A stretch of 17,265 nt of DNA from Candidatus Sumerlaeota bacterium (lineage in GTDB: Bacteria; CG03; SLGR01). The notes beneath the pieces are model-generated. The model was not told the DNA's origin. It was given only the letters and a program-made list of their open reading frames with translations, and made no database searches. Location: contig SLGR01000153.1 in NCBI GenBank assembly GCA_007136585.1, positions 1 to 17,265 on the forward strand, written 5' to 3'. Positions within the stretch are counted from its first letter, which is position 1, and every line of letters starts with the position of its first letter. The position numbers were made by a program, and so were the translations under genes. Shown one piece after another: positions 1,207 through 15,597 of the stretch.

Positions 1207-3369
1207 ATGAGCCCTAAAAAAAGCAGACGGTACGGACTTCTTCTGAGTTTTGCGGTTTTTCTGCTCTTTTTCACCCTGTGGAGTTTTGAGGTTCTGTACA
1301 GGCTGGAAGCGGCAGGGAGAGATACCAGTTTTAAATTCAGGCGGCCTCGAATTCCGGATGAATCAGTCCTGATAGTTGAGATAGATGACCTGAGCCTCCG
1401 GGAACTTGGCAGGTGGCCCTGGTCGCGGGGTACGCACGGAAAGCTGGTCCGGACTCTTGACAGGTACGGGGCAAAGAGTGTTTTTTTCGATCTTCTCTTT
1501 ATTGAGGAGGACCTTCTTAACCCCGAAGAAGACTGGTTTTTTCTGGAATCGGTAAGGGAGGCCGGGAATGTTTATATCCCTTATTACTTTTCCTTTATCC
1601 CGGGTTCAGGAACCAGAGTGTCGGAAGAACAGCACTTTGCCGCTTCAGGTATACCCTTTGACGAAGAAAATGAATTTTACACCACCGCCCGGGTAGAGCT
1701 CCCGTTTGGGGAACTCCTGGAGGCTGCTGCCGGAACCGGGTTCGTAAACGGATTTCCCGCCGTAGACGGGGTATTCAGGAATGCCGCCCTGTTCATAGAA
1801 AGCGGAGAAAGGCTTTACCCCGCCGCGGCTCTCTCAATGGCCGCCCGCCGCCTCGGAGCCGATCTCCGGGAAACTGATATAAAACCCGGGCGCTCCGTTA
1901 CCCTCTACCCCGAGGGGAGCGATCCTGTAAGGATTCCCGTGAACGAGTACGGGGAGATGATTATCAATTACAGGAATATTTTCCTTGATAACGGTGAGCT
2001 GGTCCACGGTTACGATACCTACTCCTACTCTGAGGTGCTTGAGCTTGACCGTCTGGCCCGGGACTCGGATGAGGCGGGGGATTACCTTGAGGGTGTTATA
2101 AGCGGCAGGACTGTTTTTATAGGGATGACCGCTACCGGGAGCACGGATATAGCCCCCACCCCTGTTGCCGAAGCCTACCCGATGGTGCTGGCTCACGCCA
2201 ATATTTACGATAATATCATAAACTCGGATTTCATCTCATACACTCCGCCGGCGGCCGATATACTTATCCTCCTTTTTCTTGCGCTCATACTGGGGTATCT
2301 TCTTCCCCGGATGAGCCCGTTTGCCGGCGCGGTCTTCGCAGTCCTGACCGTAGTTATTTACCTTGCGGCGAACTTTGCCGCATTTGATTACCTTAATATA
2401 ACTTTTTTCATTTTCTACCCGGTTTTAATGATAATACTGACCGAACTTGTACTCTTTATCTATAAATACCTTACCGAGGAGAAAGAGAAGAAAAGAGTGC
2501 GCCGCGTATTCTCAACCTATATGACCCCGGCAGTTGTCAACCGTATCCTTATGAACCCCGGGGCCCTGACTCTCGGAGGGGAGAGGCGGGAGATGACGGT
2601 CTTTTTCTCCGACCTGTCGGGGTTTACCGGCATATCCGAATCTCTTGAACCGGAGGCCCTGGTAAGCCTTATAAATGAGTACCTTGAGGTTATGACCGAG
2701 GTTATATTCAGGCACGAGGGGACCCTGGATAAGTACGAAGGCGACGCGATTATGGCGTTCTGGAACGCCCCGCTTGAGCAGGAGGACCACGAGACCCGGG
2801 CTGTCCGGGCCGCTATAGAATGTTTCAGGGAACTCAGCCGCCTCCAGGAAAAGTGGAGGAAAGAGGGTCTCCCTGAGCTTGATATGAGGATAGGGATAAA
2901 TACCGGACAGATGATAGTGGGGAATATGGGGTCCCTTACCCGGATGGATTACACTGTAATGGGAGATGCCGTCAACCTCGGGGCCCGGCTGGAGTCGGCC
3001 AACAAGGCGTACGGGACAAGGCTTATGATAAGCGAGTATACCCGGCAGGGCCTTAGCGATGATATACTTACAAGGGAACTTGACGCTCTCAGGGTAAAGG
3101 GGAAGTCGCACCCCGTAAGAGTATACGAGGTTATAGAGGAGAAGACCCGGGTCTCCGGGGATATGATGAGGCTTCTTCCTCTTTACAGTAAAGCCCTTGG
3201 GTTGTACAGAAAGAGAGATTTTAAATCCGCCGCGGAAATTTTCGGCTCCGCCCTGGAGGTGATCCCCGGTGACGGGCCCTCAAGGGTTTACCTTGAGAGG
3301 TGCAGGAAGTACGAAGTTGAACCGCCCCGGCAGGACTGGGACGGGACCTGGGAGCTTACCAGCAAGTAA
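1207..3369 (+). CDS. CHASE2-domain class III adenylate cyclase
   Basis: 720 residues. It should make cAMP from ATP at the inner membrane in response to an extracytoplasmic signal. After a basic N-terminus and a membrane helix at 11-30, residues about 36-345 form a CHASE2 sensor (DESVLIVEIDDLSLRELGRWPW is typical) facing outward. Three membrane helices follow at about 349-367, 371-391 and 397-419. A short helical linker leads to the cyclase domain at about 455-645. All class III catalytic residues are visible: metal aspartates D469 (FFSDLSGFT) and D513 (YEGDAIMAFW), the base-selecting pair K509 and T583 (YTVMGDAVN), and transition-state residues N590 and R594. Lys/Thr favours ATP over GTP. Residues 655-705 look like one or two TPR-like helices. 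It has its own promoter and converges on a minus operon, three bases between stops. The signal sensed is not evident. Confidence 0.9.
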   Translation: MSPKKSRRYGLLLSFAVFLLFFTLWSFEVLYRLEAAGRDTSFKFRRPRIPDESVLIVEIDDLSLRELGRWPWSRGTHGKLVRTLDRYGAKSVFFDLLFIEEDLLNPEEDWFFLESVREAGNVYIPYYFSFIPGSGTRVSEEQHFAASGIPFDEENEFYTTARVELPFGELLEAAAGTGFVNGFPAVDGVFRNAALFIESGERLYPAAALSMAARRLGADLRETDIKPGRSVTLYPEGSDPVRIPVNEYGEMIINYRNIFLDNGELVHGYDTYSYSEVLELDRLARDSDEAGDYLEGVISGRTVFIGMTATGSTDIAPTPVAEAYPMVLAHANIYDNIINSDFISYTPPAADILILLFLALILGYLLPRMSPFAGAVFAVLTVVIYLAANFAAFDYLNITFFIFYPVLMIILTELVLFIYKYLTEEKEKKRVRRVFSTYMTPAVVNRILMNPGALTLGGERREMTVFFSDLSGFTGISESLEPEALVSLINEYLEVMTEVIFRHEGTLDKYEGDAIMAFWNAPLEQEDHETRAVRAAIECFRELSRLQEKWRKEGLPELDMRIGINTGQMIVGNMGSLTRMDYTVMGDAVNLGARLESANKAYGTRLMISEYTRQGLSDDILTRELDALRVKGKSHPVRVYEVIEEKTRVSGDMMRLLPLYSKALGLYRKRDFKSAAEIFGSALEVIPGDGPSRVYLERCRKYEVEPPRQDWDGTWELTSK

Positions 3370-3372
3370 AGG

Positions 3373-4323
3373 CTACTCTTCCTCTTCCGGGTCCGGTCCG
3401 GGGCCCGGGCGGTCGAACCTGTACCCGATGCTTACCCTGTGGACCGGGTCAAGGTTTCCTCCCGGAAGGTAGGCGTAGGCTATATCGTAGCTCTCCTGGA
3501 GCCAGGTAAGCCCGAAATGCCAGGCGGCCTCGTCCACATCCATCCTGAGGCCTGTATTGAATGATACGGGTCCGGTTCCTGCCTCAAAACCGAGTTCTGG
3601 AATAAATCGGTCCTCTTTGAATATAAAGGTTATATCAAAACCCGGGGTTATGTAGTAAGTACCTATATCCATCCAGTAGGCCCCTCCCGCGTGGGCCGCG
3701 GAGGGGAGGGGGTTTGCCTTATTGATAAACTCGGTTGAGGTTCCTATATTCTGGACGGCCGCGGCAAGGCTGAGGTTCCCGACCCTCTCTGGCTCGTATA
3801 TAATCCCCGCATCCAGGGCCAGGGCCCCGGCCGAGGCCCTCTCAAAAAGCTCGCTAGAAGCGGCTTTAAGCGTTATCCCCGCGGAGAGGCGGGGTGTATA
3901 CCGGAACCCGTATGAGAGCATCGCCATTATATCCCTCTGGGCTTTTACGGTCTCGGACTGAAACCCCGCTCCGTCAAACCAGCTCAGCTCCATATCCCCC
4001 GCGTCATAGTATATGATACCGGCGGCCCAGGAACCGTAGGTTACGGGGTGCCCGTATACCGCTCCGGCAAAGGTGTCGTCGGCCATACCGATTTCCGAGA
4101 GCAGGAAGAGCTCCCGTGACGGGTTAAGGGCAAGGACCGCGGGGTTATAGAAGACCCCTGAAAGGTCTCCCCTGACCGCCATTACAGGGGTGGTTGCAAC
4201 CGGCTTGAACTTGGCCGAACGGGCCTTTCTCATTATGACCCATCCGGTCCGCCCGGTTCCTGCCGAGAGGGTCCCGGGAAGGGCCATTAAAACGAGTAAA
4301 AAGAATAAGAAGGTTTTTCTCAC
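3373..4323 (-). CDS. PorV/PorQ-family (UPF0164-like) outer-membrane beta-barrel
   Basis: 316 residues from a GTG start seven bases after the upstream gene's stop. Residues 1-21 are a signal peptide (MRKTFLFFLLVLMALPGTLS). The mature part has alternating beta-barrel strands and PorV/PorQ-like features: an ARSAKF stretch near the N-terminus, GVFYNPAVLA at 56-65 (the family's NPA motif), QNIGTSTEF at 191-199, and HRVSIGYRF at 295-303 as the probable last strand. PorV in Bacteroidota is the outer-membrane shuttle that receives proteins with C-terminal sorting domains in type IX secretion; UPF0164 is the related treponemal family. Directly upstream is a gene for a protein with just such a C-terminal domain. 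Unusually, the barrel is followed by a 13-residue Pro/Asp/Glu tail ending EEEE. A FadL-type transporter is a less likely reading. Confidence 0.7.
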   Translation of the reverse strand: MRKTFLFFLLVLMALPGTLSAGTGRTGWVIMRKARSAKFKPVATTPVMAVRGDLSGVFYNPAVLALNPSRELFLLSEIGMADDTFAGAVYGHPVTYGSWAAGIIYYDAGDMELSWFDGAGFQSETVKAQRDIMAMLSYGFRYTPRLSAGITLKAASSELFERASAGALALDAGIIYEPERVGNLSLAAAVQNIGTSTEFINKANPLPSAAHAGGAYWMDIGTYYITPGFDITFIFKEDRFIPELGFEAGTGPVSFNTGLRMDVDEAAWHFGLTWLQESYDIAYAYLPGGNLDPVHRVSIGYRFDRPGPGPDPEEEE

Positions 4324-4330
4324 GTAGGTT

Positions 4331-5938
4331 CTACCTTAGTATGGCTATCTTTCGCACCTTATCCACACCCGGACCCTTCAGGTGGGCTATATAGGTGCCC
4401 GAGGCAAGGTTCCCGGGGGCCCAGTTGAACTCGCCTTCCGCTGCCGAATGCCTGGACTCCCTGTAAACCTCCTCCCCCAGGAGGGTATAGATCGTAAGCG
4501 TAAAACTGCCTTCCCGGCTTCCCCGGTAGATGACCCTTACAGTATCGCCCTCATCGGGGTTTATGGTCCCCCTCCGCCTGGGGTCGCTGCTTCCTATGAT
4601 ACTCATACTGCCGGCATCTATTTCCGTAACAGGTTCAGGGTCAGGGTCGGGATCCGGAGAAGGATCAGGGTCGGGATCCGGAGAAGGATCAGGTTCGGTC
4701 TCCTCACCGGTATAGAGCCTGTAAAGCCGCCCCTCTTCTTCCTGGTTTAAAGTCCCCGCGTAAAGGTATCCTTCAAAGGTTTCCGGGGCAAGAAAAGCCG
4801 AAGAGTTTGAGGGGTCCCCGAAACCGTCTGTAACTATATGTTCCCAGATTTCGCGGTTTTCTTCGTCAAGCTCTCCTTTTGTCCTCCATATCTGGGCCCC
4901 GTTATAGCTATCGGAAAAAGAAATGTAAAGATACCCGTCACCCGGAACGGAGATCGTCTCCACGCTTGGCGTTGTCGTAGGGGGTTCCACAGTTTCCAGG
5001 CCGCTGTATGGACCTTCGACTGAAAGGTCAAGGGAGAGCTCCCAGTTGCTTTCTTCCGGGATATCCGGGTTTAGGTTTCTCCAGACCCTGGGAATATCAT
5101 AGTCGGAGTCTGTGACAACATAAAGATATCCGTTAAAATCTTTTGGGGCCGGAATGATCTCTTGACTACCTCCGGCTCCTAACCCGTTTCCCACCTCACT
5201 GTCCCATTCGGATTCGGTAAAGCAGTAGCGGTAAAGGTTTCCTCCCTGGTCATTGGATGTACCGCAATAGAGGTCCCCGAAGGCGGTGGAGAGGTAGGCG
5301 GCTGTATCGTCGTAATCGAAGTCAGTGTACGCATCTGCGAATAAAGTCCACTCATCTCCGGTCTGGCTGGATATGACCTGCGCCCTCCCCTCGCCATAAT
5401 GATCGTATACCCTTAATCCGGCGTATATAATACCTCCCCTGACAGTCGCGCCTGTCAGGGAATAATCGCCAAGCATTATATTGATGTCGCAGTTCTCCGA
5501 AGGCAGTGAAATGGAAAAATCGTGACTTCCGGTTTTGCTCTTGTAAATTCTGAGAGGGTTTCCGGTGGAAAAAACCGCTACAAACATATTTTCGTTAAAA
5601 GAAACGTTAAGTGGCCAGGTTTCAGAGCCTTCAGGGTTTTCCGTATCCATAGGATAGTTGTAGACGGTTTCAATGCCTGAACCGTCAAAGTTTTCGCCCA
5701 GTTTTCTGAGTCCTCCCGTAGGTCGGGTATATGAAATGTGATCGGTGTTAAAAGTGGTGAAAAAAATGTACTGATTAAAAACAGGGCCCGGAACTATCCT
5801 GATATTTTCGGTTCCAAACTGAACCGAAGCCGTTTCCACAAACCCGGAAGTTTCCGAGGCCTCAAGGATTCCAAGGCTGTTTCCGGATGCGCAGAGAGAA
5901 AAAAGAAGAAGAGTCAGCGCTGCCGTTATTTTTTTCAT
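4331..5938 (-). CDS. Secreted protein with Asp-Pro linker and C-terminal sorting-type domain
   Basis: About 535 residues. An ATG exists at 5956, but GGAG sits 8 bases before the ATG at 5938, so the product most likely begins MKKITAALTLLLFSLCASG, a signal peptide. The next 400 residues show repeated beta-propeller-like strands of the pattern YLYxGT/YLYVxTD with Asp and Trp residues (GYLYVVTDSD, GYLYISFSDS, GYLYAGTLNQ), suggesting an extracellular propeller. A Pro/Asp/Ser linker follows, encoded in part by a 24-bp DNA repeat. The last about 90 residues form an Ig-like domain of the FlgD/type IX sorting kind: SFTLTIYTLLGEEVYRE, a central W, GNLASGTYIAHLKG, and a final basic strand KVRKIAILR. By homology this end would direct export or cell-surface fixing through the PorV-like neighbour. 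The propeller ligand is unknown. Confidence 0.7.
   Translation of the reverse strand: MKKITAALTLLLFSLCASGNSLGILEASETSGFVETASVQFGTENIRIVPGPVFNQYIFFTTFNTDHISYTRPTGGLRKLGENFDGSGIETVYNYPMDTENPEGSETWPLNVSFNENMFVAVFSTGNPLRIYKSKTGSHDFSISLPSENCDINIMLGDYSLTGATVRGGIIYAGLRVYDHYGEGRAQVISSQTGDEWTLFADAYTDFDYDDTAAYLSTAFGDLYCGTSNDQGGNLYRYCFTESEWDSEVGNGLGAGGSQEIIPAPKDFNGYLYVVTDSDYDIPRVWRNLNPDIPEESNWELSLDLSVEGPYSGLETVEPPTTTPSVETISVPGDGYLYISFSDSYNGAQIWRTKGELDEENREIWEHIVTDGFGDPSNSSAFLAPETFEGYLYAGTLNQEEEGRLYRLYTGEETEPDPSPDPDPDPSPDPDPDPEPVTEIDAGSMSIIGSSDPRRRGTINPDEGDTVRVIYRGSREGSFTLTIYTLLGEEVYRESRHSAAEGEFNWAPGNLASGTYIAHLKGPGVDKVRKIAILR
4641..4696. repeat. 24-bp tandem repeat in the Asp-Pro linker
   Basis: Two identical 24-base units stand back to back at 4641-4664 and 4665-4688, each beginning TCAGGGTCGGGATCCGGAGA, and a degenerate partial third copy follows at 4689-4696. 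On the coding (minus) strand each unit adds eight residues of the Pro-Asp-Pro-Ser type to the linker. The unit length is a multiple of three, so gain or loss of copies keeps the frame. Confidence 0.9.
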
Positions 5939-5956
5939 ATGAATCGCTCCGGACAT

Positions 5957-6955
5957 TTATTTTTCCGGTTTTTCACCGTCGTAGAAACGCTCCGGGTGCC
6001 AGGCCATAACCCTGCATCCGTCGATATCTTCTTCCACAGTCTTGAAGCTGGCCAGAAGATGCAGGGGAATGGAAGTTTTGTTCGCATATATAGAATTCGG
6101 GGCTGCGTATTTCTGGAAGTGACCTGCCAGATCAATGGAGTGTCCGGCCATTTCCTGAAGAGAGAGCATATCGTCAAAATATATGAACCCGGAGTTGATC
6201 CCGCATCGGACTACAAAATCATGTTTGAACTGCTGGAGGCTGTTATTCAGCCTCGGGAGCTCCTCTATAATCTCCTTTGCTGCAAGGAAAGCGGATTCAA
6301 AGTCTCCAAAACAGCTCATTACCCCGTCAGGAGTCCAGGAAGTCTTCACCGCTCTGTGCCTGTTGAGTCTTTCTTTCACAAAACTGTTATACTGGTTGAA
6401 GTAGTATTCGACAGACGCCGGGTCTTCATCCCGTTTCATTGAAGTTGAGTTTACCACGTCTATGGAGAGAAAGGTAAGCTGTTTCCCGAGTTTATCTATT
6501 TTTTCCTTTATCCGGGCCAGCTTTCTCTGAAGTTTTCTGAGCTCGGATTCCCTGCGAAAAAACAACATCTCAAACTTTTTGAGTAATTTTTTATGAAAAG
6601 GTAATTCCCTGCCGGTCTGCTCCGGGGTTGATATTACAACGCTGTAATAAAGGCTGTCTTTGATACTGCGGCTGAAAGCGGCTGCCGGTATGCTCAGCAG
6701 AAAAGCGCCCAGAAGCACCATCCACCTTGTGATATCCGTGCCCCTGTAGACAGTAGGAAGTGTATTGCGCACGCCCGAAAGAAGAATCCCCTCAATTTCA
6801 AGTAGAAATACAAGGTAGCTGTAGGTTTCGTAGTTCTCCAGGGACGGGATAAGGTAGGCGACCGGGATAAGAAGAACTGCTGCAAGCAGCGCAAATATGA
6901 AAACTTGGGAGAGCACCAGCAGGAGATACAGAAATATTATCTTTAGTATTCTCAT
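5957..6955 (-). CDS. Membrane protein with degenerate class III cyclase-like domain
   Basis: 332 residues. The N-terminus holds about three membrane segments (roughly 5-36, 46-66, 77-96), then a charged coiled coil at about 120-160 and a class III nucleotide cyclase fold at about 160-320. The two metal-binding aspartates are kept (D166 in FLSIDVVNS; D210 in SWTPDGV). The base-selecting lysine position is serine (S206), the family GD becomes PD, and the Asn and Arg of the second catalytic motif appear to be D275 and H279 (GHSIDLAGHF). It is therefore probably not a standard cyclase; it may bind nucleotide as a sensor or make another product. It is first in a minus operon with the sorting-domain protein (stop TAA directly followed by ATG) and the PorV-like barrel. 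The gene is AT-richer than the central operon. Assignment to the cyclase fold is fairly sure; activity is not. Confidence 0.7.
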   Translation of the reverse strand: MRILKIIFLYLLLVLSQVFIFALLAAVLLIPVAYLIPSLENYETYSYLVFLLEIEGILLSGVRNTLPTVYRGTDITRWMVLLGAFLLSIPAAAFSRSIKDSLYYSVVISTPEQTGRELPFHKKLLKKFEMLFFRRESELRKLQRKLARIKEKIDKLGKQLTFLSIDVVNSTSMKRDEDPASVEYYFNQYNSFVKERLNRHRAVKTSWTPDGVMSCFGDFESAFLAAKEIIEELPRLNNSLQQFKHDFVVRCGINSGFIYFDDMLSLQEMAGHSIDLAGHFQKYAAPNSIYANKTSIPLHLLASFKTVEEDIDGCRVMAWHPERFYDGEKPEK

Positions 6956-7038: not shown

Positions 7039-7073
7039 CAGGTTTGACATCAACCTGGCGCTTTTTGTAAACT
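7039..7073 (+). promoter_or_regulatory. Promoter and possible operator of the transhydrogenase operon
   Basis: A perfect -35 TTGACA at 7044-7049 is followed by TGTAAA at 7066-7071 (16-base spacer, four of six). The start would be near 7079, leaving a leader of about 33 bases that contains GGGAG at 7091-7095. The -35 box lies within an inverted repeat, CAGGTT (7039-7044) and AACCTG (7052-7057), separated by seven bases, which could be a regulator site. I do not recognise it as a known operator; it is not the Rex consensus. Confidence 0.45.
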
Positions 7074-7111: not shown

Positions 7112-7600
7112 ATGAACAAAAATCCTGACATCGACCTGACTCCTGCCAGAGAAGCCGTTGAATCCCGCGGACGCCGGAGAAGTTCGCTTATCCCTATATT
7201 GCAGGATATCCAGAAAATATACGGGTACGTGCCCCGGCCGGCAGCCGAAATGGTGGCGGAAGAGCTCTCTATTTTTCCAGCCGAGGTATACGGAACGCTG
7301 ACCTTTTACGCTCAGTTCCGCCTTGAGCCCCGCGGGCGGCATATCATAAAGGTCTGCCAGGGAACAGCCTGCCATGTAATGGGGGGAAAGGATATTCTTG
7401 ATTACCTCTCGGGAAGACTGGGTATAACGACCGGGGGGACTACCTCCGACGGCCTCTTCTCGCTTGAGAGGGTGGCCTGCCTGGGATGCTGCGGGATCGC
7501 TCCCGTTGTTGTTGTGGATGAGAAGTTTTTCGGGCATGTCACGGTTCAGAAGATAGAGAGTATAATTGAAAGCTACAGACAGGGAGCATCCGGTGAATAA
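7112..7600 (+). CDS. NuoE/HydC-like [2Fe-2S] subunit of a bifurcating transhydrogenase
   Basis: 162 residues, the usual NuoE/HydC length. A helical N-terminus (DIQKIYGYVPRPAAEMVAEEL, typical of the family) leads to a thioredoxin-like [2Fe-2S] domain. The four ligands are all present with family spacing: C82-x4-C87 (CQGTAC) and C123-x3-C127 (CLGCC). In complexes of this kind the subunit sits against the NuoF/HydB flavin subunit and passes electrons to or from its FMN. It is the first gene of the operon. The start is odd: a TATAAT at 7106-7111 abuts the ATG, and the best ribosome site (GGGAG, 7091-7095) is 16 bases away, but there is no better in-frame start. Its stop overlaps the next start by eight bases. 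Alone it could belong to a hydrogenase or formate dehydrogenase; the third gene argues otherwise. Confidence 0.9.
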   Translation: MNKNPDIDLTPAREAVESRGRRRSSLIPILQDIQKIYGYVPRPAAEMVAEELSIFPAEVYGTLTFYAQFRLEPRGRHIIKVCQGTACHVMGGKDILDYLSGRLGITTGGTTSDGLFSLERVACLGCCGIAPVVVVDEKFFGHVTVQKIESIIESYRQGASGE

Positions 7601-9341
7601 GGTTCTTGTCTGCGCCGGGACAAGCGGTATATCGGCCGGTGCCCTTGAGGTGGCGGATGCCTTTGCCCGCGAGATAGAGAACCGGTCTCTGAAGGGATGG
7701 AGCCTGGTCCGGACAGGAGACAGGGGGCTTTTCAGGGATGTCCTTGTGGATATAGTCACCGAGAACTCCGGGAGAGTCAGTTACCAGTATATCCGGGAGC
7801 AGGACGTGGCGGAGATAGTCCAGAGCCATCTTATAGAAGGAAAGCCGGTGGAGAAACTCCTTGCCGGGGAAGATTACCGCGATTTTTTCTCCGGCCAGAA
7901 ACGCGTGGTTCTGGAGAACTGCGGGGAGATAGACCCCGAAAACCTGGGCGAGTACACCGCCCGGGGCGGGTACAGGGCCCTCGAGAAGTCCCTGCGTCAG
8001 CCTCCGGAGGATATTATAGAGACGGTTAAATCCTCCGGGCTCAAGGGGCGCGGCGGAGCCGGGTTTCCGGCGGGAGTTAAATGGGAGTTCGCAAGGTCCG
8101 CCGGCGGGGATGAAAAATACATAATCTGTAACGCGGACGAGGGGGACCCTGGAGCTTTTATGGACAGGAGTATCCTTGAGGGAGACCCCCACTCTGTCCT
8201 GGAAGGGATGACCATAGCCGGGTATGCAGCCGGGGCCTCCCGGGGGTACATTTACTGCCGGGCCGAGTACCCCCTTGCGATAGAGAAGCTGGAGAAGGCC
8301 ATTAAAGATGCCCGGGGCGAGAAATTTCTCGGTGAAGATATCCTGGGGAGCGGGTTTTCTTTTGATATAACCGTTAAAGAGGGTGCGGGGGCCTTTGTAT
8401 GCGGCGAAGAGACAGCTCTTATAGCTTCCGTGGAGGGGGGCAGGGGGATGCCGGTTTCCAGGCCCCCGTTCCCCGCGCAGGAGGGACTGCGCGGCAAACC
8501 CACCGTTATAAATAACGCCGAGACACTGGCCTGCGTCAGGCATGTTATCGCCAGGGGGCCCGGGTGGTTCTCTTCAATAGGGGTCGAAGGAAGCAGGGGG
8601 ACCAAGGTCTTTGCTCTCGCCGGGAAGGTCAGGAATACCGGCCTGGTAGAGGTGCCAATGGGGACAACCCTCAGGGAGCTTGTATTCGGTCCGGGTGGCG
8701 GGATGGAGGAGAGGAACTCCCCGATAAAGGGTGTCCAGATAGGAGGCCCCTCCGGAGGGTGTCTCCCGGAGTCACTTCTTGATACCCCTATTGACTACTC
8801 TTCAATCACAGCTACCGGGGCCATAATGGGCTCCGGGGGTATGGTGGTAATGGATACGCGCACCTGTATGGTTGACGTGGCGAGGTTCTTTCTTGAGTTT
8901 ACAGTGGCCGAATCCTGCGGCAAGTGTGTCCCATGCCGTATAGGGTTAAAGAGAATGCTGGAGGTCCTCACGGATATTACCGAGGGCAGGGGCAGGATGG
9001 AACACCTTGAGTTTCTTGAGAGGATCTCCTCCACCGTAAAAAGCTCCGCTCTCTGCGGACTTGGAAACACCGCTCCCAACCCCGTGGCGACAACCCTGAA
9101 GTATTTCCGGCAGGAGTACGTAACGCATATCAAGGAAAAAAAATGCCCCTCAGGGGTCTGTCTGAAACTCATAGAGTTTGTCGTGGTTGATGAAAAGTGC
9201 AAAAAATGCGGAAAGTGTTACGGAGTATGCCCTGCAGGGGCTGTCTCTTGGGAAAAAGGGGGGTACGCTTCTATAGACAGGGAGAAATGCATAAAATGCC
9301 GGGCCTGCATAAACGCGTGCCCCTTCTCGGCAATTGAATGA
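7593..9341 (+). CDS. NuoF/HydB-like FMN, NADH-binding iron-sulfur subunit
   Basis: 582 residues. I chose GTG at 7593 over ATG at 7566 because AGGGAG at 7581-7586 lies six bases before it; GTGAATAA then overlaps the previous stop. Counting from that start, residues 1-95 are a HydB-type thioredoxin-like domain, then the FMN loop GRGGAGFPAG (152-161), the NADH region ending CGEETALI (270-277), a [4Fe-4S] site C442-x2-C445-x2-C448 with C488, the conserved CPSGVC (518-523), and a C-terminal ferredoxin domain with C536/539/542/546 and C566/569/572/576. The protein should take up or release NADH at FMN, the probable bifurcation centre in this family, and exchange electrons with ferredoxin through the C-terminal clusters. 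Oddly, the N-terminal domain keeps only C7 of its four cluster cysteines. It overlaps the next gene by ATGA. Confidence 0.9.
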   Translation: MNKVLVCAGTSGISAGALEVADAFAREIENRSLKGWSLVRTGDRGLFRDVLVDIVTENSGRVSYQYIREQDVAEIVQSHLIEGKPVEKLLAGEDYRDFFSGQKRVVLENCGEIDPENLGEYTARGGYRALEKSLRQPPEDIIETVKSSGLKGRGGAGFPAGVKWEFARSAGGDEKYIICNADEGDPGAFMDRSILEGDPHSVLEGMTIAGYAAGASRGYIYCRAEYPLAIEKLEKAIKDARGEKFLGEDILGSGFSFDITVKEGAGAFVCGEETALIASVEGGRGMPVSRPPFPAQEGLRGKPTVINNAETLACVRHVIARGPGWFSSIGVEGSRGTKVFALAGKVRNTGLVEVPMGTTLRELVFGPGGGMEERNSPIKGVQIGGPSGGCLPESLLDTPIDYSSITATGAIMGSGGMVVMDTRTCMVDVARFFLEFTVAESCGKCVPCRIGLKRMLEVLTDITEGRGRMEHLEFLERISSTVKSSALCGLGNTAPNPVATTLKYFRQEYVTHIKEKKCPSGVCLKLIEFVVVDEKCKKCGKCYGVCPAGAVSWEKGGYASIDREKCIKCRACINACPFSAIE

Positions 9342-11440
9342 CGATGGAACTTGTAATTAACGGAAAAAAGGTAACAGCTCCCGGAGAGTGCACCATACTT
9401 GAGGCCGCCCTGGGGGCCGGGATATATATCCCCAACCTCTGCTGGCACCCGGATCTTCCCCCCGGAGAGGCCTGCCGGATGTGCATAGTTGAGGTAGAAG
9501 GGATGAAAGGGTATCCGACGGCCTGCACCACTCAGGCGGCTGAGGGGATGGAGGTAAAGACCGAAACCCCCGAGTTGCGTTCCATAAGAAAAGACCTGAT
9601 CTGGCTTATAATGAGCCGGTACAAGGGAAGGCCGGAAAGCTCTTCACAGCTTGAGAAACTGGTGAAATACATAGGAGAACAGGAACTTTCGGGCTCCGAT
9701 TCTATGGATAATCCCGATCTTCCGACGGTGGATGACGAACCGCTTTTTGTACGGGACCTCAACCGCTGCATACTCTGCGGAAGGTGCGTATCCATATGCC
9801 GCGATGTAAGGAAGACCGGGGTCCTTGGTCTCTCCGGCCGGGGTATTGAAACTTCGGTAAGCACGAGTTACGGGGCGCCTTTTGCTGATTCGGCCTGCAG
9901 GTTCTGCGAGGCCTGTGTGGAGGTATGTCCTTCCGGGGCCCTTACTGACAAAGAAAGGTTTGATGAGAAGGACCGCGAGAAGGTCCTTCTTCCCTGCGTA
10001 AACACCTGCCCGGCGCGCATAGACGCCGCAAGGTACGTGAAACTAATAGCCGCGGGAAGGTACGATGATGCTCTGGAGGTTATAAGGGAGAAGGTTCCCT
10101 TCCCGGAGATACTTGGGTATGTCTGCGACCATCCCTGCGAGGAGGAGTGCCGAAGGGGTCAGCTGAACCAGCCGATAGCCATCCGGGCGCTTAAGAGGTT
10201 TGCCGCCGAACAGAGCTCGGGCAGATGGCGCTCAAAATTAACTCCGGGACCGGATACGGGAAAGAAAGTTGCAATTGTAGGCTCCGGCCCGGCGGGGCTT
10301 ACCGCGGCCTGGTTCCTGCGCCTGGCCGGCCACGGGGTGAGCGTATTCGAATCCCTCCCGGAACCCGGGGGTATGATGAGGACCGGTATCCCCGCCTACA
10401 GGCTCCCGCGCAAGGTGCTGGACAGGGAGATATCCGAGGTGGAGAGGATAGGGGTAAGGATCAATACCTCCTCAGAGATAGACGATCCCCGCAAACTTCT
10501 CAGCCAGGGGTTTGATGCGGTATTTCTGGGCGTGGGGGCTTCCCGGGGGACAGGTATGGGTATCCCCGGTGAAGACTCCCCAGGGGTCCTTGACGGTATA
10601 TCTTTTCTTAGTTCCGTAAACTCGGGCGGCGACCCGGGTATAGCCGGAAGTGTTACTGTGGTAGGGGGCGGTAACGTGGCAATAGACGCGGCCAGGTGCG
10701 CGCTCCGGGCCGGGGCTGAAAAAGCGGTCATTCTATACCGCAGGACTCGCCAGGAGATGCCTGCGCTTCCGGAAGAAGTTGAGGAGGCCTGCCGGGAGGG
10801 GGTTGAGTTTAATTTCCTGGTAAACCCCGTGAGTATTGAAGGTTCATCCGTGAATCTGAAAGTACGGTGCCTCAGGATGGAGTTAGGGGAACCCGATTCA
10901 AGCGGCCGGAGGCGCCCGGTCCCCGTTGAAGGCAGCGAATTTGTGCTTAAGACGGGTATGCTCGTAATGGCTATAGGGCAGCGCACGGAGGTCCCGGAGG
11001 GGTTCTCAGGGTTTCTAAACGAAAGGGGGCGTATAGAGGCTGATCCTGTTACGGGGGCCACTCCGGCGGCGGAGGGTATTTTTGCCGGCGGCGACGCCTG
11101 CAGCGGCCCCGCTTCGGTGATAGAGGCCATCGCCGCGGGAAGGCGCGCGGCTGCTTCAATGGACAGGTACCTCGGCGGGGACGGGCAGCAGGTTGATAAG
11201 AAACTGCTTCCTGAGGAGGAGTACGACCCCTGTTTCGGAAGACAGGAGGGGTTTGCGGGACTGGAGAGGGTATCGCTTCCTGTAACCGGTTTAAGGGAAA
11301 GGCTTGGAGGGTTTGATCCGGTTGAGCTTCCCCTTGACCCGGATAAGGCGCGCAGTGAGGGTTTGCGGTGTCTGAAATGCCAGTTCCGCCTGAGGATATC
11401 AGGTCTTCCCGCACCTCCTTCTGAACCCGCCTCGGATTAA
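9338..11440 (+). CDS. NuoG/HydA-type iron-sulfur domain fused to GltD/NfnB-like FAD-NADPH module
   Basis: 700 residues in two halves. Residues 1-75 are a plant-type [2Fe-2S] domain (C35, C46, C49, C63). Residues 140-200 hold two [4Fe-4S] sites (C144/147/150/154 and C187/190/193/197). The His-Cys cluster normally between them in NuoG and HydA is absent; residues 80-140 have no Cys or His. From about 215 the protein is GltD/NfnB-like: cysteines C220, C224, C263, C267, C271; FAD loop VAIVGSGPAG (311-320); NADPH loop VVGGGNVAID (441-450) followed by YRRTRQEMPA, whose arginines suit the 2'-phosphate; FAD motif GIFAGGDAC (580-588); and a C-terminal CxxC (678/681). Fusion beside NuoE- and NuoF-like genes fits a Sporomusa-type Nfn/Bfu transhydrogenase coupling NADPH with NADH and ferredoxin. 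A glutamate synthase is unlikely, as no large subunit gene is near. Confidence 0.88.
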   Translation: MTMELVINGKKVTAPGECTILEAALGAGIYIPNLCWHPDLPPGEACRMCIVEVEGMKGYPTACTTQAAEGMEVKTETPELRSIRKDLIWLIMSRYKGRPESSSQLEKLVKYIGEQELSGSDSMDNPDLPTVDDEPLFVRDLNRCILCGRCVSICRDVRKTGVLGLSGRGIETSVSTSYGAPFADSACRFCEACVEVCPSGALTDKERFDEKDREKVLLPCVNTCPARIDAARYVKLIAAGRYDDALEVIREKVPFPEILGYVCDHPCEEECRRGQLNQPIAIRALKRFAAEQSSGRWRSKLTPGPDTGKKVAIVGSGPAGLTAAWFLRLAGHGVSVFESLPEPGGMMRTGIPAYRLPRKVLDREISEVERIGVRINTSSEIDDPRKLLSQGFDAVFLGVGASRGTGMGIPGEDSPGVLDGISFLSSVNSGGDPGIAGSVTVVGGGNVAIDAARCALRAGAEKAVILYRRTRQEMPALPEEVEEACREGVEFNFLVNPVSIEGSSVNLKVRCLRMELGEPDSSGRRRPVPVEGSEFVLKTGMLVMAIGQRTEVPEGFSGFLNERGRIEADPVTGATPAAEGIFAGGDACSGPASVIEAIAAGRRAAASMDRYLGGDGQQVDKKLLPEEEYDPCFGRQEGFAGLERVSLPVTGLRERLGGFDPVELPLDPDKARSEGLRCLKCQFRLRISGLPAPPSEPASD

Positions 11441-11454
11441 ATAAGGGAATATTA

Positions 11455-12774
11455 ATGGGTAGTGAAACCGTGAGAATACGGAGCCTCGGCTCCGCGGAGT
11501 TTGATTCGCCGCTGGGGAAAAGAGAGGATACCCTCTTTGTCACGCCGGATGACGATATCAGTATCCGCAGAAGGCGGGGTGAGATGGGCGAGGGAACCCC
11601 CCCGGAATTCTTTGAGGCGGCCGGCCCCCGGCGCAAGATTTATTTTAGTCCGGAGAACCTCAGGTGCGGGATACTTACCTGCGGAGGCCTATGTCCGGGG
11701 CTCAATGATATAATAAGGGAAATCGTATTTAAGCTCTATCACGGGTACGGGGTCAGTGAGATTGACGGCTTCAGGTTCGGGTACCGGGGCCTGGCCCTGG
11801 CTGATGAGATCCCTCCCCTTGAGCTTACCCCTGACCTGGTCGATTCCATACACCGGGACGGTGGGACGATACTCTCATCTTCCCGCGGACCCCAGGATAT
11901 TGACAGAATGATTGATACGCTCATTGAGCGCAGGGTCGGAGTTCTTTTTGCCGTCGGCGGGGACGGGACAATAAGGGGGGCCCACAGTATAGCTGAAAGG
12001 GTCAGGGAGAGAAACCTTGATATATCCGTTACGGCGGTGCCCAAGACCATAGATAACGATATAGCTTTTGTCAGCAGGTCCTTCGGGTTCGAGACGGCGG
12101 TCCAGGCCGCATCAGATATAATAGACAGCGCCCATACGGAGGCCCGGGGTTATTTTAACGGGATAGGCCTTGTGAAACTTATGGGGCGCCATTCAGGGTA
12201 TATAGCCTCCGCCGCTTCCCTTGCCAACAGGAACGTGAATTACTGCCTTATCCCTGAACTTCCTTTCAGGTTAGAGGGAAAAGGAGGGCTCCTGGAGGTC
12301 CTTGAGGAAAGGCTGGCCCTGAAAGAACATGCTGTAATAGCGGTGGCCGAGGGTGCCGGCCAGGACCTCCTCAATAAGGACCGGAGCTCCGCTGAGAAGG
12401 ACGCCTCGGGTAATCTCAGGCTCGGGGATATAGGGAAACACCTTAAATCAGAGATAGAGAGATACCTGGGGTCGCGCTCGGTTCCCGTGAATATAAAGTA
12501 CTTTGAACCCAGCTATATAATAAGGAGCGTTCCGGCAAACGCCTCCGACTCAATATACTGCGTTAAACTTGCCCAGAACACTGTCCACGCGGCCCTTTCG
12601 GGAAGGACCGATATGCTGGTCAGCCTCTGGAACTCGGATTATGTGCATATCCCCCTTTCAATGGCCGTCTCCGAAACCAAATGTGTCGATATCCGGAGCC
12701 GCCTCTGGAGGACCGTTATGGAAGCGACCCGCCAGCCTTACTCTCTTTTTAAGGATCCCGGAGGGGGTTCTTAG
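11455..12774 (+). CDS. ATP-type 6-phosphofructokinase (TP0108/plant/trypanosome-like group)
   Basis: 439 residues. It phosphorylates fructose 6-phosphate to fructose 1,6-bisphosphate, the committed step of glycolysis, in the cytoplasm. An N-terminal extension of about 65 residues precedes the catalytic fold. Visible motifs are CGILTCGGLCPGLN (71-84), GGDGT (168-172), PKTIDND (196-202, catalytic D200) and KLMGRHSG (241-248). Gly in GGDGT marks ATP use, whereas pyrophosphate enzymes usually have GGDD there. The lysine in PKTIDND together with that Gly is the pattern of the long ATP enzymes of trypanosomes, plants and spirochaetes. It is last in the plus operon, 14 bases after the transhydrogenase gene, with GGGA six bases before the ATG. 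Its stop overlaps that of the converging barrel gene. Substrate preference is inferred from motifs only. Confidence 0.9.
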   Translation: MGSETVRIRSLGSAEFDSPLGKREDTLFVTPDDDISIRRRRGEMGEGTPPEFFEAAGPRRKIYFSPENLRCGILTCGGLCPGLNDIIREIVFKLYHGYGVSEIDGFRFGYRGLALADEIPPLELTPDLVDSIHRDGGTILSSSRGPQDIDRMIDTLIERRVGVLFAVGGDGTIRGAHSIAERVRERNLDISVTAVPKTIDNDIAFVSRSFGFETAVQAASDIIDSAHTEARGYFNGIGLVKLMGRHSGYIASAASLANRNVNYCLIPELPFRLEGKGGLLEVLEERLALKEHAVIAVAEGAGQDLLNKDRSSAEKDASGNLRLGDIGKHLKSEIERYLGSRSVPVNIKYFEPSYIIRSVPANASDSIYCVKLAQNTVHAALSGRTDMLVSLWNSDYVHIPLSMAVSETKCVDIRSRLWRTVMEATRQPYSLFKDPGGGS

Positions 12775-13271
12775 AACCTGTAATTTATACCCGTCCTGAA
12801 AAGCGGGTTGTGGGCCGGGGAATCATCATCCATAGCCAGGTCGTAGAGCACCATCGCGTAGGCCGTTGTCCTGCGGTCCAGGCGCCGCCGGTACCCCGCT
12901 CCTACCGGGAATGAGGCCGCCCACTTACGGTCGTCATCAGTTCCGGGTTTCTCCATATTGGTAAGCTGCAGTTCCGCGTGGGCGTAGATATCCCTGTAGA
13001 AAGTGGCCTGGGTAAAGAGCCTTGACCCGTAAGTGTAACTGGATATATCATCCCTCTCAGAGTAGGAGTAGAAAGGGGAGACCCCGAAATCATATATTCC
13101 GATCCTGTACCCGATCAGAGGGGAGACATCCAGGTAGAACCCCCGGTTGTCGTAATTGCCGCTGAAAGACCCTCCTGTGTAAATGTACCCGGCTTCGGCG
13201 GAAGGCCCAGAGGCTGTAAAGCCGGCAAAGACCAGTGCCGCGGTCAGGCATTTTGCCGCAAGTTTTCTCAT
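12771..13271 (-). CDS. Small outer-membrane beta-barrel protein
   Basis: 166 residues. Residues 1-27 form a signal peptide ending AEA before GYIYTGG. The mature protein, about 139 residues, has amphipathic strands rich in Tyr, Arg and Gly (FYLDVSPLIGYRIG, FGVSPFYSYSE, AHAELQLTNME, FPVGAGYRRRL, AYAMVLYDLAMD) and ends in NYRF, the aromatic terminus expected of outer-membrane barrels. The pattern (DVSPLxGYRI, AHAE, VGAGYR, VLYDL) resembles small uncharacterised barrels I associate with Bacteroidota and relatives. A strong ribosome site (AAAGGAGG) lies eight bases before the ATG and a good promoter precedes it, so it can be expressed separately from the PfkB gene. The stop overlaps that of phosphofructokinase by four bases. 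Function unknown; a structural or small-solute pore role is a guess. Confidence 0.75.
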   Translation of the reverse strand: MRKLAAKCLTAALVFAGFTASGPSAEAGYIYTGGSFSGNYDNRGFYLDVSPLIGYRIGIYDFGVSPFYSYSERDDISSYTYGSRLFTQATFYRDIYAHAELQLTNMEKPGTDDDRKWAASFPVGAGYRRRLDRRTTAYAMVLYDLAMDDDSPAHNPLFRTGINYRF

Positions 13272-13279
13272 AAGTTCTG

Positions 13280-13328
13280 CCTCCTTTCTTTAAAGACTTA
13301 ATATACAAATTTTAATAAGTGGCTTCAA
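13280..13328 (-). promoter_or_regulatory. Promoter and strong ribosome site of the small barrel gene
   Basis: On the minus strand TTGAAG (plus 13323-13328) and TATATT (plus 13300-13305) are spaced by 17 bases. The leader then carries AAAGGAGG (plus 13280-13287), a nearly full anti-16S match eight bases before the ATG at 13271. This is the best Shine-Dalgarno in the window and suggests an abundant envelope protein. Confidence 0.6.
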
Positions 13329-13350
13329 ATGAAAAAAACTATCCCGGGGT

Positions 13351-14277
13351 TTATCTGTTGTTCCGCCCGAGCGGCTCAACCGCCCGGTATATCTCCCTTA
13401 CCCCCCGGGCCTTTACTGCCAGTGAGGCGGTTATTATCCCGAACCTCCCGGCGCTTACAGGGTCATCGCCTTCAACCAGGCGGGAAGCGGCTCCGGCGCA
13501 GAAAGCGTCTCCGGCCCCGGTGGTATCAACGGCTCCGCCGGCCGGAGAGTCAGGGGAAAGCAGAATCGTCTCCCCGGGGGTCATAAGAAAAACCCCTTCT
13601 TCCCCCAGGGTTATGAAAAGGGCCTCTACCCCTACCTCGAAAGCTTCCGGACCCAGTTTTCGTATCCTTCCGGGGCCCGGGATGGACCCCGGTTCCCCCA
13701 GCATAGAGGCCGCTTCTTTTCTGTTTGCCTGGAGGCACCTTGTTCCCCGGGCCCATTGTTTCCAATTACTTAGTGAGCGGTATGAGCGGGGTGAGGCGGT
13801 TTCCCGGGAGAGGGCCAGCGAATGGATATCCAGCCATACGGGGCAGGGGAGACTGGCGGTAAGTCTGTCCCATTCACCGATACGGAGCTCAAACCCGGAG
13901 TTCATTACCATTATGAAAAAGTCCAGCTTCCCGGCCTCACCGGTTATCTCGCGGATATCAAGGGGGTCGGAAAGGGAGAGGAGTGTCTCTCTCCGTTCCC
14001 CTTTTAATGGGTAGTGGAGTCTTACCCGGTTCCCGGGTTTCTCCGGGAAAAGGACCTTTTCGGTCGAGAGGGTATCCCAGTCGCGGGTGATCTCTTTGAA
14101 CTCCTCCCGGAGATCTTTCCCCACCGCGCAGTAGAGCCTGGTCCTTACCCCCAGGGCCGAGAGAGCCGCACACTGGTAGAGTACTCCGCCCGGACCTTCC
14201 CATTCAGGTGATGTTTCCGAGGTTACTATGTCAAAAGTGGGGGTCCCGGCTAATCCCAGTACTTTTGAGTATGACAC
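13351..14277 (-). CDS. PfkB-family sugar kinase
   Basis: 308 residues from a GTG start. PfkB (ribokinase-like) enzymes phosphorylate sugars, nucleosides or sugar phosphates with ATP. The C-terminal signature is complete: DTTGAGDAFCAG at 251-262, with D257 as catalytic base and the GAGD anion hole. Upstream lie FITLGEEGVF (221-230), a common ATP-domain strand, and the family's AVG(K/R)D stretch (51-55). At the N-terminus GPGGVLYQCA (28-37) matches the GG lid motif, but the usual Asn is not present, so the sugar substrate cannot be guessed from it. It starts nine bases after the CPBP gene's stop with no clear ribosome site, so translation may be coupled. A role in sugar or nucleoside salvage is inference. 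Confidence 0.8.
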   Translation of the reverse strand: MSYSKVLGLAGTPTFDIVTSETSPEWEGPGGVLYQCAALSALGVRTRLYCAVGKDLREEFKEITRDWDTLSTEKVLFPEKPGNRVRLHYPLKGERRETLLSLSDPLDIREITGEAGKLDFFIMVMNSGFELRIGEWDRLTASLPCPVWLDIHSLALSRETASPRSYRSLSNWKQWARGTRCLQANRKEAASMLGEPGSIPGPGRIRKLGPEAFEVGVEALFITLGEEGVFLMTPGETILLSPDSPAGGAVDTTGAGDAFCAGAASRLVEGDDPVSAGRFGIITASLAVKARGVREIYRAVEPLGRNNR

Positions 14278-14286
14278 GGCGCGGTC

Positions 14287-14997
14287 TTAGAGAAGAGCCA
14301 TTACAAGAAGTTTCCCGCTGAGTATGAACCTCAACGTCATTGAGAAGATCAGTCCCTTTGTTACAAAGAAGTACCCTGTAACCAGACCCGATAAAAAAGC
14401 CAGGCTTACCTGCGTAATAAATATATAATTCAATACCGGGGTTTCTCCTATGAAAGACGAGTACCTCAGGGAAAAAAGCGCGGTTATCAGCGCTGAGAGT
14501 ATTACCCCGTATCTTCTGCTTCCAAGGAGGGCGACGGCAAGGCTGGTTATTCCCAGCCTGAGTATGACCTCTTCCGTAACGGCGTTTTTAAGGGCTACTG
14601 AAAGGATGTAGTGAATGTTTTCCGGGTACGATGCCGGAGATATGCTTATAAAGTGCCTGTCAAATAGAAAGTATGAGAAAACCCCCATGACGGCTGCTGT
14701 TAGAGCGAGCTTCGGAAGAGCGCGGGGGAGTTTACGGGGGTCTCCCAGGCCGGGCAGCCCGGATCTCCCCGAGTAGTAAATCCCGGAGGTGGAGCAGATA
14801 AATGATAGGCCAAGGACCACCGCAAGCTGGGATAGTATAAGGGAGGTCGGGTCCGGGGGCGCAGCGTACCCGGATTCCGGCATTACTGCGGCTACCAGGA
14901 ACTGGAAGTACGGCGCCGCCGCTGCCGCCGAAATAAGGGCCAGGGCCAGGGACGAAGCAAGGTTCTGCTTTATCCTGTGAATATCTATAGTACTCAG
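14287..14997 (-). CDS. CPBP-family membrane protein, probable CUG start
   Basis: From ATG at 14883 the product would be 198 residues, but the same frame stays open upstream to a TAG and encodes a missing first membrane helix (IHRIKQNLASSLALALIS...). No ATG, GTG or TTG lies there; CTG at 14997-14995 has GGAGG (plus 15003-15007) five bases before it, giving 236 residues. I call that start. CPBP proteins are polytopic membrane proteases (CAAX protease/bacteriocin-processing type). Motif 1, EExxxR, is present (TEEVILR, residues 103-109 from the ATG). The histidines of motifs 2 and 3 seem replaced: FxxxH reads FSLRY (137-141) and the last helix reads SMTLRFIL. It may lack protease activity. It heads a minus operon with the PfkB kinase. 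An assembly frameshift could also explain the lack of a normal start. Confidence 0.65.
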   Translation of the reverse strand: MSTIDIHRIKQNLASSLALALISAAAAAPYFQFLVAAVMPESGYAAPPDPTSLILSQLAVVLGLSFICSTSGIYYSGRSGLPGLGDPRKLPRALPKLALTAAVMGVFSYFLFDRHFISISPASYPENIHYILSVALKNAVTEEVILRLGITSLAVALLGSRRYGVILSALITALFSLRYSSFIGETPVLNYIFITQVSLAFLSGLVTGYFFVTKGLIFSMTLRFILSGKLLVMALL

Positions 14998-15061
14998 AAG
15001 CGCCTCCGCGGTCTCCTGGAGACAAAGCTATTCTTTTTTATTATTGACCCAGGTTTTAAAA

Positions 15062-15090
15062 TTGGTAAATCCTCCGGTTTTGATTATAAT
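15062..15090 (+). promoter_or_regulatory. Probable promoter for the metallopeptidase-MscS-recD2 operon
   Basis: TTGGTA at 15062-15067 (four of six) is followed after 17 bases by a perfect TATAAT at 15085-15090. The -10 box overlaps that of the opposite-strand promoter, so the two polymerases could not bind at once. The leader to the ATG at 15214 would be about 115 bases. Confidence 0.45.
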
Positions 15091-15111
15091 AAATTCCTGA
15101 GAGTTTATCGA
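15083..15111 (-). promoter_or_regulatory. Probable promoter for the CPBP-PfkB operon
   Basis: On the minus strand TCGATA (plus 15106-15111, four of six) stands 17 bases from a perfect TATAAT (plus 15083-15088). The transcript would begin near 15076. A GGAGG (plus 15071-15075) occurs just after this start but is not followed by a usable start in the CPBP frame. Confidence 0.45.
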
Positions 15112-15113
15112 GA

Positions 15114-15127
15114 CCCGGAGCTCCGGG
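15114..15127. repeat. 14-bp perfect palindrome in the leader
   Basis: CCCGGAGCTCCGGG is a perfect inverted repeat without a loop, located about 20 bases after the predicted plus-strand transcription start and just upstream of the minus-strand -35 box. It could bind a dimeric regulator acting on both promoters, or be a chance product of local G+C content. Confidence 0.5.
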
Positions 15128-15213
15128 AGGGATGTACCCTGGAAGTATGATGTTTTTGAGATCGCGAAACAGTATGGAAATCTCAGTCCGGGATTTTCCG
15201 GGAGTCATTTTAA

Positions 15214-15582
15214 ATGAACCTGGAAGAGTTTGAGGCGGAGGTCAGGAGGGTGCTTGAAGAGCTTCCCGGGGAGTACCGGGAGATCCTCTCCCGGGAGGAG
15301 GTTGAGGTCATCTGCCGCGACAGGGTGCCGCAGGCGGTAAGGGAAAGGCATTCGGGCAGGACGGTTTTAGGGATATTTACGGGTATTTCCCGGGAGAAGG
15401 CTGGGCGGTTTTCAAGCAGCGTCGAGCCGACCCGGATAGAGATATACAGGGAGAGCTTTGAAAGGGTTTACGGAACCGGGATAACGGAGCGTATGAGGGA
15501 TAATATCTACCGCACGGTTGTGCACGAGATAGCCCATTACCTCGGGTTTGATGAGGAAAGTATAAGAAGACTTGGGTACTGA
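15214..15582 (+). CDS. Small zincin-like metallopeptidase-domain protein
   Basis: 122 residues. It matches the short cytosolic zincin-like family (Pfam Zincin_1 type), whose members are little more than a minimal metallopeptidase fold. The zinc motif near the C-terminus is intact: H104-E105-x2-H108 followed by x2-G111-x-D113 (VVHEIAHYLGFDEE), giving the HExxHxxGxxD form with D113 as a possible third ligand. The N-terminal half (FEAEVRRVLEELP) and the IEIYRESFE strand are typical. There is no signal peptide. GGGAG lies nine bases before the ATG. It is the first gene of an operon with mscS-like and recD2 genes, 15 bases before the former. The natural substrate of the family is not established as far as I know. 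Confidence 0.85.
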   Translation: MNLEEFEAEVRRVLEELPGEYREILSREEVEVICRDRVPQAVRERHSGRTVLGIFTGISREKAGRFSSSVEPTRIEIYRESFERVYGTGITERMRDNIYRTVVHEIAHYLGFDEESIRRLGY

Positions 15583-15597
15583 AAAGGAGCGTGAGCG

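Follow-up and report, generated by a model that had tools for sequence, protein, structure and literature searches.

The window, that is, the whole 17,265-nucleotide stretch of DNA that we analyzed, contains three intact plus-strand ORFs at 7112–7600, 7566–9341, and 9338–11440 in its ORF list; we refer to these genes as bfuC, bfuB, and bfuA. The first, bfuC (7112–7600, +), encodes a 162-residue NuoE/HydC/StnA-like [2Fe-2S] thioredoxin-like subunit with a Pfam match to 2Fe-2S_thioredx (1.7e-50) and, by eye, all four cluster Cys residues. The second ORF is open from a TTG at 7566; because its orthologs begin at positions that align with its residue ~10–12, the start of bfuB is probably the GTG at 7593, so bfuB (7593–9341, +) would overlap the bfuC stop by 8 nt. 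This gene encodes a NuoF/HydB/StnB-like subunit with an FMN/NADH site (Pfam matches to Complex1_51K, 3e-47, and NADH_4Fe-4S, 1e-31, plus SLBB and two stretches of Fer4; domain ids PF01512, PF10531, PF10589, and Fer4). The third, bfuA (9338–11440, +), shares 4 nt with the end of bfuB and encodes a 700-residue protein in which a compact HydA/NuoG-like N-terminus is joined to a C-terminal GltD NADPH/FAD module (Pfam matches to Fer2_4, Fer4_Nqo3, Fer4_20, and Pyr_redox_2, the last at 1e-24). An earlier sequence-only reading of this DNA had recognized NuoE-, NuoF-, and NuoG/GltD-fusion genes with overlapping stops and starts; the intact overlapping ORFs and the Pfam matches, which are far above chance for all three subunits, bear this out.

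Upstream of bfuC is a sigma-70-like promoter match (TTGACA-18-TAAACT; 7044–7073, +), a consensus match only; ~3 such matches would arise by chance over the stretch scanned. Downstream, pfkA (11455–12774, +), encoding an ATP-dependent 6-phosphofructokinase (NF005301, 606 bits against a cut-off of 400), starts 15 bp 3' of bfuA and is probably co-transcribed with it. Elsewhere in the window are a CHASE2 adenylate/guanylate cyclase (1207–3369, +), a second cyclase-like ORF that has no Pfam match (5957–6955, −), and a PorV/PorQ-family protein adjoining a secreted protein whose C-terminus is FlgD/T9SS-like (3373–4323, −, and 4331–5956, −). The ORF list and a Pfam scan of ten window proteins revealed no H-cluster, formate dehydrogenase, or quinone-module genes in the window and no molybdopterin/FdhA domain in bfuA or the neighboring ORFs; the H-cluster domain PF02906 is likewise absent from bfuA and its surroundings and was found only on other contigs of the host genome. 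The absence of hydrogenase, formate dehydrogenase, and quinone-module genes that the sequence-only reading had reported thus holds for the window; the genome has [FeFe]-hydrogenases elsewhere. Four features go beyond that reading: the C-terminal position of GltD, the deletion of the A3 motif, the loss of the N-terminal [2Fe-2S] cluster of BfuB, and pfkA 15 bp downstream.

We assigned the domains of BfuA from Pfam matches and alignments. The [2Fe-2S] domain (A1; 9347–9628, +) comprises residues 4–97 with the ligands C35, C46, C49, and C63; it is followed by a linker (9629–9739, +; residues 98–134), a 2x[4Fe-4S] ferredoxin-like domain that contains A2 and A4 (9740–9955, +; residues 135–206; C144, C147, C150, C154, C187, C190, C193, and C197), and the GltD module (9989–11383, +; residues 218–682; cluster ligands C220, C224, C263, C267, C271, C678, and C681). 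When BfuA is aligned with PDB chain 9bov_A, its residues 6–97 correspond to residues 7–98, residues 219–682 to 103–567, and residues 133–206 to 602–675. The two-cluster ferredoxin domain therefore has swapped sides relative to the StnC order, that is, it precedes GltD in BfuA; we found no description of a domain order with GltD after the ferredoxin domain in the literature searched (supplements excluded). In a structure search, residues 1–682 of the BfuA model superpose on residues 2–567 of the matched chain (Z 42–46) and match the folds of StnC, NfnA, and NfnL; the GltD half dominates these matches, so they speak to that half. The model is a monomer with pLDDT <50 at residues 117–139 and 198–204. 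Among the NCBIfam models for the NuoG part, FeFe_hydrog_A6 is the top match to the N-terminus (172 bits); GltD thus sits in BfuA where HydA has its H-cluster domain.

In HydA and the colinear relatives of BfuA, alignment shows an HPxDCxxC...C motif in the segment that connects the [2Fe-2S] domain to the two-cluster domain; we infer that it represents A3, the His/Cys3 cluster in the Bfu scheme. This motif is deleted from the linker of the window BfuA and is missing from its close orthologs; it is kept in a Dehalococcoidia sequence (L055) and in Lachnospiraceae-type sequences. A1, A2, and A4 suffice if electrons enter at A4, as in F420-Bfu (Schut et al., PMC9304861); the simplest reading is that electrons would likewise enter BfuA from the A4 side and that A3 became dispensable.

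The NADPH module contains the FAD loop GSGPAG (residues 315–320), the NADPH loop GGGNVA (443–448), and R468/R469, so the FAD and NADPH loops and the arginines that the sequence-only reading had noticed in the third protein are indeed present. The seven GltD cluster Cys residues are invariant or nearly so among relatives, and K286 (StnC K170) and R355 (StnC R239) are invariant in 24/24 relatives. R468/R469 are also invariant, except in seven side-group sequences (L058–L064) in which they are replaced by Leu-Glu and which have no full BfuB/C. The members of this side group, from Lachnospiraceae, Holophagaceae, and others, are colinear GltD fusions that are mostly followed by a short divergent NuoF-like gene; because of the Leu-Glu replacement and this sole short neighbor, their nucleotide preference probably differs, and the sequences suggest an NADH-type enzyme.

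The BfuB tree contains 72 sequences; the NuoF-like sequences of L060 and L062 were left out because their very long branches misplaced the root. The 11 compact BfuB sequences form one clade with 100/100 support. The sequence-only reading had proposed such a tree as a check on a hydrogenase or formate dehydrogenase affiliation, and the check was carried out in part: the subunit has a clade of its own, and its union with the sampled HydB sequences is rejected (p = 0.016), but union with StnB is not rejected (p = 0.44), and formate dehydrogenase BfuB is not a labelled group in the tree. In the GltD tree, a 100/100 branch parts the compact and colinear proteins from StnC and from most hydrogenase-fused and most stand-alone GltD proteins, and a joint clade of compact and StnC GltD is rejected (p-AU 0.00046); compact BfuA therefore gained its NADPH module independently of StnC.

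These results bear on whether the locus encodes an orthodox member of the Stn (Sporomusa-type Nfn) group that simply lost the C-terminal FdhF-like domain. The subunit types and predicted reaction would be the same, and BfuB is close to StnB in the tree. However, loss of a tail cannot place GltD on the opposite side of the 2x[4Fe-4S] domain, the A3 motif is absent, and the GltD modules do not group (p = 0.0005), so we regard this explanation as very unlikely. The "Sporomusa-type" architecture proposed in the sequence-only reading is accordingly not supported: StnC has another domain order, another set of clusters, and a GltD of different origin.

The closest known relatives of the GltD module include a protein encoded beside bzd-type benzoyl-CoA reductase genes. 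In two loci (L039, 7606–10134; L040, 6460–8919), colinear NuoG-N/GltD proteins directly adjoin such genes and are candidate NADPH donors for ring reduction; we infer that these are BzdV, which has been named as part of a ferredoxin-regenerating system (PMC5736913). Two further loci have different arrangements. L052 (4730–9088) encodes a compact BfuA whose paired BfuB lies elsewhere in the tree and retains the N-terminal [2Fe-2S] Cys; joining it to the compact BfuB clade is borderline rejected (p = 0.0497), and a second pairing of compact BfuA with a BfuBC core is possible. In Chloroflexi, L054 (6664–12103) encodes a colinear GltD protein, BfuC, a BfuB that lacks the C-terminal ferredoxin domain, and a 344-residue HydA-like piece; a large adjacent ORF resembles a molybdopterin oxidoreductase.

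We aligned the window BfuB with the corresponding subunits of solved bifurcating enzymes (A. woodii and A. mobile HydB, Sporomusa StnB, and the Nfn-type B chains of C. saccharolyticus and T. sibiricus). Both of its loops (the FMN loop and CNADEGDPGAF) are retained, as are the B1 Cys residues, the B2 Cys and His ligands, and both C-terminal [4Fe-4S] clusters (B3/B4); among PDB chains, it is matched best by T. sibiricus NfnB, A. mobile HydB, and chains of the StnB type. Three of the four Cys residues of the N-terminal [2Fe-2S] cluster (B5) are replaced throughout the compact clade. Schut et al. (PMC9304861) tie the B2 His to bifurcation, report that non-bifurcating homologs lack B2–B5, count B5 among the conserved core clusters, and include the Sporomusa enzyme in the Bfu family; StnB has itself lost two of the four Cys, and the cluster is absent from its structure. 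The other family traits are present, that is, the BfuB domain set, a NuoE-type BfuC in the same operon, a BfuA with 2Fe-2S and Fer4 domains, and the B1–B4 ligands; in the compact-clade alignment only B5 is absent. Because the Sporomusa enzyme counts as a member although StnB lacks B5, we treat B5 as not defining and, from these sequence features, assign the bfuCBA product to the Bfu family.

The strongest new evidence comes from the genome contexts of bfuCBA. The compact operon is found in 6/16 genomes of the phylum (that of the window and 5/15 others) and in scattered outsiders. NfnA, called at E < 1e-67, is found in 0/6 carriers and 8/10 non-carriers (one-sided p = 0.0035 for the 16 phylum genomes, a test that ignores relatedness); the two non-carriers without NfnA are genomes that are 63–69% complete. 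The six carriers have only PyrK-like matches (identity ≤32%): in the window genome (G000) the homology search identified no NfnA above the PyrK-like level, and no stand-alone NfnB-type gene was found near bfuA. Single absences count for little, because the window genome and most of the related genomes are incomplete drafts; the bfu/nfn state changes inside a family, inside a genus, and between families.

Two sites in the chromosome show bfuCBA in the place that nfnAB has in relatives, between orthologous flanks. At the first, the gene order is acn-icd-fumA-fumB-ndk-ackA-[X]-plsX-fabH-fabD, where X is bfuCBA in three genomes (G001, G004, and G006) and nfnAB in three others (G005, G007, and G002, where the contig end cuts it); the flanking proteins are 46–70% identical, and in some genomes parts of the flanks fall outside the contig ends or the stretches examined. 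At the second, within one genus (G008, G012, and G014), bfuCBA is inverted in G008 between an xdh-lipoprotein block and a glycosyltransferase; the block is 75–94% identical to that in G014, where nfnA follows it, and the glycosyltransferase is 94% identical to that in G012, where nfnAB precedes it. In Elusimicrobiota, NfnA is found in 125/149 genomes and in neither of the two carriers identified (p = 0.025), and four other carriers that we checked (G061, G064, G065, and G066) lack NfnA; G063 (labelled Thermoplasmatota, the contig being possibly mis-binned) has both. A gene for an NADP-type glutamate dehydrogenase adjoins bfu in three loci and nfnAB in one. In acetogens, Stn and Nfn are almost mutually exclusive (Kremp et al., PMC7483475). 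The genomic evidence for functional equivalence to Nfn is unusually direct.

The in situ exchange also bears on whether the enzyme might be a non-bifurcating NADPH:NAD+ or NADPH:ferredoxin oxidoreductase whose NuoEF-like module is only an NADH diaphorase. The loss of B5 would fit this, as would the colinear BfuA relatives that are encoded without BfuB/C beside benzoyl-CoA reductase genes, because the GltD half alone is a plausible NADPH:ferredoxin reductase. However, the operon replaces the bifurcating nfnAB, and BfuB retains the B3/B4 ferredoxin domain and the B2 ligands with the His specific to bifurcation, that is, clusters reported to be missing from non-bifurcating homologs (Schut et al., PMC9304861); we consider this explanation unlikely.

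The host draft genome (1.88 Mb, 88% complete) encodes RnfC (478 bits) and, at three places on two other contigs, [FeFe]-hydrogenases, each with its own adjoining NuoE/NuoF genes; family searches of this 88% complete genome did not find formate-THF ligase or acetyl-CoA synthase. The sequence-only reading had suggested a redox role in a fermenter that is not a classic acetogen, and these findings agree with it. One contig contains a tandem hydrogenase locus (L041, G000:C149:7000-26994; 7791–16902) that encodes NuoE, a 1049-residue NuoF-GltD fusion, and HydA, followed by NuoE, a short NuoF, and HydA; the NuoF-GltD hydrogenase resembles the sub-type I BfuABC of Hydrogenedentota (PMC11406978). Derivation of BfuB from this NuoF-GltD hydrogenase is rejected (p = 4e-58). 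Across carriers, the bfu neighbors include ackA, fatty-acid synthesis genes, and NADP-type glutamate dehydrogenase, with pfkA in the window; together with Rnf and the [FeFe]-hydrogenases, they fit a predicted role in NADPH supply in a hydrogen-evolving fermenter.

The hydrogenase genes on other contigs could point to a third substrate other than NADP(H), or to a catalytic partner, e.g., a hydrogenase subunit, encoded elsewhere. We judge this extremely unlikely: each hydrogenase gene has NuoE/NuoF genes of its own, no extra gene common to the carriers was found in the bfuCBA neighborhoods, conservation extends to R468/R469 and the NADP-type loop, and bfuCBA takes the place of nfnAB.

We therefore favor, with a probability of about 85%, the prediction that bfuCBA encodes a soluble electron-bifurcating Bfu transhydrogenase (2 NADPH + NAD+ + Fd(ox) <-> 2 NADP+ + NADH + Fd(red)); the coupling of NADH, NADPH, and ferredoxin predicted in the sequence-only reading is supported by the intact B1–B4 core, the conserved NADPH site, and the replacement of nfnAB in situ. 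In the path suggested by the sequences, NADPH would deliver its electrons to FAD in the GltD module at the BfuA C-terminus; from there they would pass via the two GltD [4Fe-4S] clusters to the 2x[4Fe-4S] domain (A4, A2), at the position of the H-cluster input in HydA, and then via the [2Fe-2S] cluster A1 and B1 to the FMN in BfuB. The BfuB/BfuC core (FMN, B2, the [2Fe-2S] of BfuC, and B3/B4) would split them between NAD+ and ferredoxin. In vivo, the reaction probably runs mostly in reverse, that is, NADH and reduced ferredoxin would provide NADPH for biosynthesis in a hydrogen-evolving fermenter, the job of NfnAB in the relatives.

We also think it likely that this is a third bifurcating transhydrogenase, assembled independently of NfnAB and Stn: a BzdV-like NADPH module would have joined a BfuBC core at the point of hydrogenase input, feeding in electrons from the side opposite to that in StnC and making A3 dispensable, and the enzyme would have changed places with nfnAB at its native loci on more than one occasion. 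This suggests that the Bfu core would accept an NADPH module from either end of a NuoG-like wire and that a bifurcating transhydrogenase of this kind was assembled at least twice. The in situ swaps are a natural complementation experiment in uncultured bacteria, and the fact that B5 and A3 were lost in nature informs the question of which clusters are needed for bifurcation. Having found acetogens that lack both Stn and Nfn, Kremp et al. (PMC7483475) asked whether there is a third complex; bfuCBA is a searchable candidate architecture.

Among known systems, bifurcating [FeFe]-hydrogenase HydABC shares the BfuB/BfuC core and a HydA-like BfuA N-terminus, with GltD at the position of the H-cluster; bfuA has an NADP(H) module instead of the H-cluster, and BfuB lies outside the sampled HydB clade (p = 0.016). 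F420-Bfu and Type 2 Bfu (PMC9304861) also have a BfuA with only A1, A2, and A4 and electron entry at A4; they differ in the third substrate, F420, or in an extra subunit. The BzdV-like colinear NADPH oxidoreductase beside bzd-type genes has the same domain order, with its GltD in the same region of the tree; in contrast to bfuA, it has no adjoining BfuB/C, has kept an extended Cys-rich segment in which the A3 region lies, and has a C-terminal extension. NfnAB is alike in predicted reaction and, given the in situ swap, in genomic position, but has two subunits, bifurcates at FAD, and has no NuoE/NuoF core. The Nfn-Bfu/NfnABC enzymes of Thermococcus sibiricus (PDB 9n5u) and Caldicellulosiruptor saccharolyticus (PDB 9bov) share the predicted reaction and match in structure (Z 42–46), but in both the domains follow the order of StnC, unlike in bfuA; the T. 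sibiricus enzyme is described as feeding via A3 in the absence of A4 (PMC9304861), whereas bfuA lacks A3. StnABC (PDB 8oh5; PMC10482914, PMC7483475) resembles bfuCBA in its NuoE, NuoF, and NuoG/GltD subunits, its FMN/FeS bifurcation core, an expected non-bifurcating FAD, the K170/R239 counterparts, and the degenerate N-terminal [2Fe-2S] of the NuoF subunit. StnC (1172 residues) consists of a [2Fe-2S] domain, GltD (~102–565), the rest of NuoG including 2x[4Fe-4S], and an FdhF-like domain, and its electrons pass through C7 (of which K170 is a ligand), C6, C5, C4, C3, and B1; in the 700-residue bfuA product, GltD is last and of separate origin, the FdhF domain and the His/Cys3 motif are absent, and C114 is replaced by Ala. 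From these comparisons, the bfuCBA enzyme belongs to the Bfu family and very likely works like Stn, but by domain order and GltD ancestry it is not a member of Stn.
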